From: Clostridia bacterium
GTDB lineage: Bacteria; Bacillota; Clostridia; Christensenellales; Borkfalkiaceae
Direction of reading: 5' to 3'
Assembly (NCBI GenBank): GCA_017886545.1
Contig: JAGHJS010000060.1
Span: 1 to 64,000, forward strand
DNA length: 64,000 nt
The notes below the pieces were generated by a model. The model was not told the DNA's origin and searched no databases. It saw only the letters and a list, made by a program, of their open reading frames with translations. Every line of letters begins with the position of its first letter. Position 1 is the first letter of the stretch. Made by a program: the position numbers and the translations under genes. Positions 42,905 to 60,990 of this stretch are shown here, one piece after another.

Positions 42905-42920
42905 AAGCAAACCTCTGTCT

Positions 42921-43303
42921 CGTAAAAATCTCGGCAGGCTGCTGCCTGCGATTTTTACGATTTTAGGACAACCGCCGCTACCTCGTCGGAGCAGTCGGCT
43001 GCACTCTCGCATTGCCCAAAAGGGCAAAGCTCGCATGCGCGCTCCGCTCCTCCTCTTCCCAAAAATCTCACTCCGTTGCGATTTTTGGGAGCCCTGTTTA
43101 TTGGTCGGGATAGCGAAGGTTTTCCTCGCCGCACGATAATTCAGGGCACACCATTATAAAAATCGTGCGGCTTCACCTTTCCTGCATAAGCCGTAAGCAT
43201 ACGGCAAATTGGGGGCGCTTTTCCAAAGGCGTGGCTTTGGAACGCGCAATTTGGTTTATTGAAATGGTTCCCGAAAATCACAATGAAATGAGGTTTTCGG
43301 GAA
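42921..43303. repeat. Structured intergenic element A
   Basis: This 383-bp non-coding stretch is made of hairpins. In plus-strand order: 42921-42959 (10-bp stem, TC/TGC internal loop, inner stem 42933-42946); the shared box CAACCGCCGCT (42969-42979) with a small hairpin; 43058-43089 (second TC/TGC hairpin); 43128-43171 (10-bp stem around conserved loop TTCAGGGCACACCATTATA, 43140-43158); 43190-43205 and 43206-43252 (hairpin plus long stem with loop GCGTGG); 43268-43303 (inverted-orientation hairpin with an ACA/GA loop). Element B (60441-60755) shares the boxes and folds but not the stem sequences. Confidence 0.8.
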
Positions 43304-59460: not shown

Positions 59461-60435
59461 ATGCAATACAGGAATCTCGGCAAGTGGGGACTGAAAGTGA
59501 GCGAGATCGCGCTCGGCAGCTGGATGACGGACCTGAACGGCGCGGGCGCGGCGGAGACCGCGCGGCAGTGCATCCGCGCAGCCTACGACGCGGGCGTGAA
59601 CTTTTTCGACTGCGCGGACGCGTACAGCGGCGGCGAGGCGGAAAAATTCCTCGGCACGGCGCTGCGCGATTACAGGCGCTCTTCGTACGTCGTCTCTTCC
59701 AAGGTGTTCTTCCCCATGGGGCGGGGCGCGAACGATTGGGGGCTTTCGCGCAAACATATCATCGAACAGCTGGACAACACGCTGAAAAACATGCGGCTGG
59801 ACTACCTCGACCTCTACTTCTGCCACCGCTACGACCCGACCACGCCCGTCGAAGAGACGCTGCAGACCCTTTCGGACATGGTCGCCGCGGGCAAGATCCT
59901 CTACTACGGCGTGAGCGAATGGTCGCCCGTGCAGCTGTGCAAAGCGTTTTCGACGGTCAAAGAACTGCACCTGCGCCCGCTCTCCGTCATTCCGCCGCAG
60001 TACAACATGGTCGACCGCTACATCGAGGACGAGATCGTAGCGATCTGCGCCGAAAACGGGGCAGGCATCGTGCCCTTCTCGCCGCTGGCGCAGGGGCTAC
60101 TGACGGGCAAGTACCGCAAGGGGCAGCCCCTGCCCGCAGGCTCGCGCGCGACGCACCAGGCGGACAGGCAGATCAACAACCTGCTCACCGACGAAAACCT
60201 GACCAAGGTGGACGAACTCTCCAAAATCGCGGACGGGCTGGGCGTGAGCCTTTCGGTGCTGGCGCTCGGCTGGATCCTGCGCCTGCCGCAGATCTCCTCC
60301 GTCATCACGGGCGCTTCCCGCCCCGAACAGCTGGAGGCGAACATCGCCGCGAGCGGGCTGCACATCCCGCAGGAAGCGCTGGACGAGATCGAACGCATCC
60401 TCAACTACCATCCGTTTGTGAGGAAGATCGGGTGA
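59461..60435 (+). CDS. Aldo/keto reductase (potassium-channel beta-subunit-like)
   Basis: The 324-residue TIM-barrel enzyme has the catalytic tetrad parts DCADAYSGGEAE (Asp, Tyr), SSKV (Lys) and LYFCHRYD (His). The NADPH-binding C-terminus includes SPLAQGLLTGKY and SSVITGASRPEQLEAN. The order and the FFPMG/NDWGLSR stretch resemble the channel beta-subunit/YghZ subgroup. The substrate aldehyde is unknown. AAGGAG precedes the ATG. Element B follows 5 bp after its stop. Confidence 0.93.
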   Translation: MQYRNLGKWGLKVSEIALGSWMTDLNGAGAAETARQCIRAAYDAGVNFFDCADAYSGGEAEKFLGTALRDYRRSSYVVSSKVFFPMGRGANDWGLSRKHIIEQLDNTLKNMRLDYLDLYFCHRYDPTTPVEETLQTLSDMVAAGKILYYGVSEWSPVQLCKAFSTVKELHLRPLSVIPPQYNMVDRYIEDEIVAICAENGAGIVPFSPLAQGLLTGKYRKGQPLPAGSRATHQADRQINNLLTDENLTKVDELSKIADGLGVSLSVLALGWILRLPQISSVITGASRPEQLEANIAASGLHIPQEALDEIERILNYHPFVRKIG

Positions 60436-60440
60436 TAGAT

Positions 60441-60755
60441 TCACGCATTCCTCGCGCAAAGGCGCTGCGGAATGCCGTGAGTTTAAGGGGCAACCGCCGC
60501 TCTTACGAGACAGCGGTTTCTCCCTCTTTCGGGCACTTTTCAGGGCACACCGTTATAGAAGTGCCCGAAATTCACCCTCTTCCGTCACGCTTTCCGCAAA
60601 GCGCAATGGGCAAAAGCAAAAAGCGTGGGTTTTTGCTTTTGCAAAAAATTATTTAAGTGCGGCGCATTCACCTTTCCCCAATAAGCCGAAAGTTTTCGGC
60701 AAATTGAGTGCGCTTGCAAAAAGTGTGATTTTTGCAAGCGCAATTTGATTATTGG
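60441..60755. repeat. Structured intergenic element B
   Basis: In plus-strand order: hairpin 60441-60480 (11-bp stem with one bulge, TC/TGC internal loop, inner GCGC stem); shared box CAACCGCCGCT (60491-60501) with a CCGCT/AGCGG hairpin; 60527-60570 (12-bp perfect stem around TTCAGGGCACACCGTTATA, 60539-60557); a first module at 60588-60642 (hairpin, then a 13-bp stem with loop GCGTGGG); and a second module at 60678-60755 (CCAATAA/TTATTGG outer stem, GCCGAAA hairpin, AAATT/AATTT and GCGC stems, loop GTGTGA). Boxes match element A; stem sequences do not. Confidence 0.8.
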
Positions 60756-60770
60756 AAAGGAAGTACCTTA

Positions 60771-60990
60771 CGTCATCCTGAGCGGAGCGGCGGGCTTCCT
60801 TCCCGTCATCCTGAGCGGAGCGGCGGGCTTCCTTCCCGTCATCCTGAGCGGAGCGAAGCGGAGTCGAAGGATCTCTATGATAATAATGACGATATTCGTA
60901 TAGAGATCCCTCGACAAGCTCGGGATGACAAGGGGAGAGGCTGCCACTCCGTGTCACCCTGAGCGGAGCGGCGGCTCCGCTCGAAATGAC
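60771..60990. repeat. CTGAGCGGAGC repeats: 33-bp tandem array and inverted copies
   Basis: Three units starting CGTCATCCTGAGCGGAGC begin at 60771, 60804 and 60837 (period 33). The third continues into GTCGAAGGATCTCTAT and is matched by an inverted copy ending GGGATGAC at 60929, giving a long inverted repeat (60838-60929). A further unit with its own GAGCGGAGC/GCTCCGCTC stem lies at 60953-60990. Confidence 0.85.

Follow-up and report, generated by a model that had tools for sequence, protein, structure and literature searches.

The window analysed here is a 64,000-nucleotide stretch of a Clostridia genome, and it contains two structured intergenic elements, A and B. The outer edge of the first hairpin of A adjoins the Shine-Dalgarno region of metA (minus strand, start codon at about 42904). 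The first hairpin of B begins 4 nt past the stop codon (60433-60435) of an aldo/keto reductase gene. The features of the two elements are as follows.

42920-42960, plus strand: P1 hairpin of A (TCGTAAAAATC...GATTTTTACGA), with P1 homologues in other copies.
42964-43127, plus strand: P2 of A, with 5' strand TAGGACAACCGCCGCTA, 3' strand TAGCGAAGGTTTTCCTC (43111-43127) and an inserted repeat in the loop.
42981-43099, plus strand: palindromic repeat inside the P2 loop of A, with 27 matches in the genome.
43128-43171, plus strand: P3 of A, with arms GCCGCACGAT/ATCGTGCGGC and loop AATTCAGGGCACACCATTATAAAA, the conserved box.
43172-43182, plus strand: TTCAC and Y-tract of A (TTCACCTTTCC), covarying with P2.
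43190-43205, plus strand: hpA of A (GCCGTAAGCATACGGC).
43206-43261, plus strand: GCGC stem with hpB of A (TTCCAAAG/CTTTGGAA), 3' end near TTTATTGAAA.
60440-60480, plus strand: P1 hairpin of B (TTCACGCATTCC...GGAATGCCGTGA).
60486-60526, plus strand: P2 of B (AGGGGCAACCGC...GCGGTTTCTCCCTC).
60527-60570, plus strand: P3 of B, with arms TTTCGGGCAC/GTGCCCGAAA and the conserved box as loop.
60571-60652, plus strand: TTCAC and Y-tract (TTCACCCTCTTCC), hpA and hpB of B, 3' end AATTATT.
60649-60755, plus strand: truncated second unit (97.8 bits), with a TTAT junction, orphan 3' arm GTGCGGCGCA, TTCACCTTTCC, hpA GCCGAAAGTTTTCGGC and hpB TTGCAAAAA/TTTTTGCAA.

A full unit measures about 240 bp and reads P1-P2-P3(box)-TTCAC-Y-hpA-hpB from 5' to 3'. 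P1 is a long hairpin, often TTCACG...CCGTGA, that starts with TTCACG or with TCGCG/TCGTA. P2 has the form GAGG.../...CCTC, and P3 is a 10-bp stem whose loop of about 24 nt carries GGC...TTATA. TTCAC and a pyrimidine tract, the Y-tract, lie 3' of P3. They are followed by hpA, a 6-bp stem with a loop that is mostly NGYN, and by a GCGC stem that encloses hpB (AAAA-GYGYG-TTTT), and the unit ends near ATTATT. The box occurs in at least six variants, each with its own stems. On the reverse strand the P3 box (43139-43161 in A) reads TATAAT in many copies, which resembles a -10 element. A promoter was considered for this motif, and no -35 element was seen by eye.

An earlier, sequence-only reading had described A and B as two isolated elements that present common boxes on unrelated stems. 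Every box that it named is present in both elements: CAACCGCCGCT lies at 42969-42979 in A and at 60491-60501 in B, and the 19-nt box at 43140-43158 and 60539-60557, respectively. The core of the box has two exact matches in the window, and four with at most three mismatches against 0.79 expected. The stem proposed beneath the box in A (43128-43137/43162-43171) is exact. In B the stem is 60527-60536/60561-60570 (10 bp, extensible by TT/AA). Compared with shuffled sequences, B folded as RNA gave z = -6.8 and A folded as DNA gave z = -6.6, and 0 of 100 shuffles equalled either element. The hairpin and long stem that had been assigned to the 3' part of B (60653-60755) belong instead to the truncated second unit, a member of another subfamily (arm GTGCGGCGCA), which is fused to the unit of B at TTAT (60649-60652).

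Both elements also have repeats of other kinds in or beside them. In the P2 loop of A lies a distinct repeat, roughly 119 bp long (about 42981-43099); the same insert is found at loci L010, L013, L023 and L026, and an insert-free version of this P2 occurs at locus L064 of a relative, G100. The inserted palindromic repeat (GTCGGAGCAGTCGGCTGC...GGGAGCCCTGTTT) often sits in the loops or stems of the main elements, and its first hairpin resembles P1. A tandem second repeat, GTCATCCTGAGCGGAGCG, directly follows B at 60772-60970 (four copies against 0.12 expected) and is also found 3' of other copies of the element.

A and B are not isolated: they belong to a family of mosaic repeats with a high copy number. 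In the genome of the window (G000; 2.06 Mb, 91 contigs, 85% complete), the box TTCAGGGCACACCNTTATA has 31 matches with at most three mismatches, against none in a reversed control. Element B used as a DNA query matched 76 places in this genome, mostly partially, which shows that the family is mosaic. A covariance model (R1) found at least 83 copies there. Copies in this genome are often at or near contig ends (contigs C2, C18, C19, C28, C34, C42, C43, C70 and C71). The assembly thus probably broke at the repeats, and copy number is underestimated.

Matches to R1 were found in 37 of the 40 genomes of the genus, with at least 83-84 matches in several of them, and the number of copies per species ranges from 0 to at least 84 within this one genus. 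At the family level, 95 of 251 genomes had matches, mainly in three genera, and at the order level 17 of 297, including genomes of families f6 and f14. The architecture is kept in these other families, and conservation between families extends to the loops, TTCAC and the hpB loop. A scan of named genomes gave model-confirmed matches only in uncultured Clostridia genomes (labelled Clostridia or Firmicutes). Pattern matches in Pedobacter, Zeaxanthinibacter, Agathobaculum, Pseudoflavonifractor and others were discarded as chance, with no model match in those tested. In the genome G084 the model has many short matches that are all confined to positions 58-120, which cover hpA and hpB (for example L314 and contig C10); this may be a T module that exists on its own in another genus.

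We then examined pairing. In an alignment of 40 units, 87.8% of cells pair and both sides change in 19 of 28 pairs. None of 500 shuffles matched the covariation score and pairing fell to 29-49% when partners were slid, a control that leans in favour of the structure because this alignment itself defined it. For a second set of 165 copies the anchors were the box and TTCAC, not the pairing, with the offset of the 5' arm set to the best-pairing one within a small range; in 143 of these copies P3 has at least 9 of 10 Watson-Crick pairs, and the set contains 43 distinct stems. Under a tree-based null with fixed spacing, two P3 pairs reached E = 0.005, and the next-ranked pairs were mostly in P3 or hpA and individually not significant; this null is home-made and is conservative because the tree was built from the same short columns.

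The sequence-only reading had taken the pattern as the compensatory one of a selected RNA or single-stranded-DNA structure, and had proposed a covariance-model search of the genome and its relatives. This part of its interpretation held up, as the search returned many further copies with strong covariation, and its failure to place the elements in a known RNA family was borne out by the lack of an Rfam match. Membership of a high-copy repeat comes close to one of the outcomes that it had itself named as refuting, repeat or transposon-like DNA, yet no known transposon end matches.

Selected RNA helices normally accept G-U pairs far more than A-C. Of the roughly 2,640 stem cells of P1, P3 and hpA, Watson-Crick pairs account for 2,608, G-U for 17 and A-C for 13. 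G-U is thus about as rare as A-C, which leans to recognition of DNA rather than RNA, with the qualification that the copies are related and the counts small.

The Y-tract tracks P2 by subfamily. The combinations are GAGGA/TTCCTC/TTCACCTTT, GAGGGG/CCCCTC/TTCACCCCTT, GAGGG/TCCCTC/TTCACCCTCT and GAGAGA/TCTCTC/TTCACTCTTT (P2-5'/P2-3'/Y), so that the 5' strand of P2 can pair with either partner. Across 95 distinct triples, P2-5' and Y paired better than in any of 1,000 permutations, a modest gain (6.14 versus 5.77) that is uncorrected for kinship. Read by eye, the same rule apparently applies in other families of the order. From these sequences, the alternative pairing of P2-5' with P2-3' or Y is a possible switch.

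Where do the units sit? Using gene calls from our own codon-usage model, we found 119 of 202 full units after the end of a same-strand gene and 68 facing a gene start; 26 lie between convergent genes, 5 between divergent genes and 2 overlap coding sequence. Of 46 strictly detected P1 hairpins, 32 start 0-14 nt past a stop codon; P1 may otherwise lie against the next gene's ribosome-binding region or against the end of another unit. This placement is tighter than mere tolerance of insertions predicts, and it counts against a mobile-repeat reading.

The site downstream of asnS illustrates how such a position evolves. A unit is present there in 21 of 30 species and the site is empty in 9, as read from the site comparisons (taken alone, the script detected P1 in 11 species and P3 in 16). 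Strictly detected P1 hairpins, 11 in all, begin 5-10 nt past the stop codon, and no two have the same sequence. Of their 187 pairs, 184 are Watson-Crick, and neither G-U nor A-C occurs. Even closely related species differ in the subfamily found at this site. Comparison of the relative G100 with the window's genome revealed decayed remnants or empty sites at several loci, and no target-site duplication was definable at the empty sites. Thus, copies are dispensable and apparently replaced as whole hairpins. Several copies are found at the same orthologous position in more than one species, so vertical descent accounts for part of the distribution.

These observations bear on a serious rival, which we nonetheless consider rather unlikely: the unit may be a host-selected 3' UTR RNA, in which P1 at the stop codon, the alternative pairing of P2, and P3 would together form a module for mRNA processing, stability or termination that selection maintains at each gene. 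The tight, sense-oriented spacing of P1 after stop codons, the excess of units after same-strand gene ends over those facing gene starts, and the pairing retained by 11 different P1 sequences at asnS all fit such an RNA, as do the triple covariation of P2 with Y, suggestive of a switch, and the conservation of architecture across the order. However, whole species and 9 of the 30 asnS sites do without the element, copies decay in G100, and many copies are antisense or lie against start codons. The stems have no excess of wobble pairs either. An intrinsic terminator was rejected, as no U-tract is conserved across clades (copies in G332 lack a T-run), and terminator-like sites in the region of B were no more frequent than chance (1 against 0.9 expected).

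Similarity between copies ends at hairpin borders. Units often occur in tail-to-tail pairs or in tandem, and nested inserts are also common; the tail-to-tail pairs have their 3' ends in common and resemble long inverted repeats. A MITE would carry terminal inverted repeats together with a target-site duplication. The 5' P3 arm is missing from 34 of the 115 T units. Most of these arm-less units are fused at TTAT, 8-9 nt ahead of the orphan arm, to the unit before them, at its 3' end. The same joining was found for units of several subfamilies. The P3 loop (ATTATAGAAA) and the unit end (ATTATTGAAA) are near-direct repeats, so site-specific joining or short-repeat recombination could explain the junctions. 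The examined set from the window's genome contained no near-identical full-length pair at different loci, so that any recent movement is conjectural.

Could palindromes be perfected without selection? Template switching during replication would copy one arm onto the other and would generate covariation without function. Nearly all pairs are Watson-Crick with few intermediates, and hairpins are replaced in mosaic fashion, as this process predicts. However, arm copying explains neither the conservation of the loops, TTCAC and the hpB loop between families nor the covariation of P2 with the distant Y-tract, and the decayed copies in G100 were not repaired. We therefore regard this explanation as improbable.

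We searched for a mobiliser. The hairpins with conserved unpaired tags, the same short sequence at the two unit ends, the absence of an ORF and the dimers resemble REPs (PMC3733652), and would suit a non-autonomous element of IS200/IS605 or REP/RAYT type that a Y1 HUH transposase moves. The data already contradict this idea, which is very unlikely: Y1_Tnp was missing from eight carriers of copies (G000, G100, G076, G167, G155, G064, G128 and G240) and present in three genomes that gave no copies (G043, G124 and G158), and neither the GTAG nor the CGTC tag of REPs was seen. Some other carriers (G085, G010, G028 and G084) do have Y1_Tnp. TnpB was absent or below cut-off in nearly all copy-rich genomes tested. 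Tyrosine integrases occur in 20 of 20 genomes and are hence uninformative. The mobiliser searches gave the same result in G064 (97% complete, 20 contigs) as in the less complete genome of the window.

A structured, non-coding, high-copy sequence might also be a fragment of a retro-element or group II intron spread by a reverse transcriptase, or be borne by phages or plasmids. We consider this extremely improbable and contradicted by the present data, since RVT_1 was absent from the window's genome and absent or below cut-off in nearly all copy-rich genomes tested, no Rfam intron matched, and the element had no match in 2.9 million viral contigs, phages and plasmids. Rfam 15, searched at gathering and relaxed thresholds, gave nothing credible; the best score over an element, for Clostridiales-1 (23 bits against a threshold of 48, with many broken pairs), was rejected.

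Among known kinds, the interspersed mosaic repeat, represented by BOX and BIME/REP, comes closest. BOX elements of Streptococcus are modular, enriched between convergent genes, slow to move and likely parasitic, and are linked to an IS via shared terminal repeats (PMC3049150). Our family resembles them in its structured modules of variable order and number, its intergenic, non-coding and convergent-enriched placement, its strong predicted structure, its low recent movement and its likely parasitic nature. REPs are single hairpins of 20-40 bp with GTAG ends and a Y1 transposase (PMC3733652, PMC2817692, PMC3116915). REP/BIME/REPIN systems with RAYTs are similarly high-copy and extragenic, with variable stems, conserved unpaired tags, dimers and mosaics; here, by contrast, the unit has five hairpins over about 240 bp, GTAG is missing and most copy-rich genomes tested have no Y1. 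CGTC REPs are also palindromic, high-copy and without a dedicated transposase, yet none of their 8-9 bp stems, 4-5 nt loops or CGTC ends (PMC3733652) is found here. The folded single strand, guide-like pairing and same short sequence at both ends recall IS200/IS605-derived miniature elements, but here most copy-rich genomes tested have no Y1 gene, and no target site is defined. Integron attC sites likewise work as folded strands, with stems that vary and unpaired bases that are conserved, whereas here there is no cassette array and the copies are dispersed between housekeeping genes; an attC identity seems unlikely, as a comparison by eye with P2 showed no RYYYAAC/GTTRRRY boxes. The family is set apart from BOX, BIME and REP by hypervariable but strictly paired stems on fixed loops, by P1 abutting stop codons, by P2/Y covariation and by the missing mobiliser.

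Taken together, these results lead us to favour, with roughly even confidence, the view that A and B are dispersed non-coding mosaic repeats which spread and exchange parts in one Clostridia lineage, and that a mobility or recombination activity most likely recognises them in the form of folded single-stranded DNA. In such a mechanism the hairpins would present fixed unpaired boxes, namely GGC...TTATA in P3, the Y-tract and the hpB loop. A presumed enzyme would break and join strands at the direct repeat ATTATWGAAA, present in the P3 loop and at the 3' end of the unit, and this joining would append, swap or truncate units. Stem sequence would be free to change while it stays complementary, and insertions would survive chiefly where a stop codon has just been passed. 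Ordinary recombination between short repeats is another possible source of the ATTATWGAAA junctions. More tentatively, the family may consist of order-wide multi-hairpin DNA elements lodged at stop codons, whose hairpins are replaced whole around fixed loops by a recombination or copying system unlike Y1 transposases, reverse transcriptases or TnpB.

Repeat DNA can yield strong compensatory covariation, and comparing G-U with A-C counts offers a simple check. Throughout one Clostridia family, the repeats described here shape the sequence between genes; the window's genome has at least 83 copies per 2 Mb, and Rfam contains no such family. If the units are indeed recognised as DNA, they point to gut bacteria having a mobility or hairpin-copying activity of a new kind; if they act as RNA, they would be a portable 3' UTR module.
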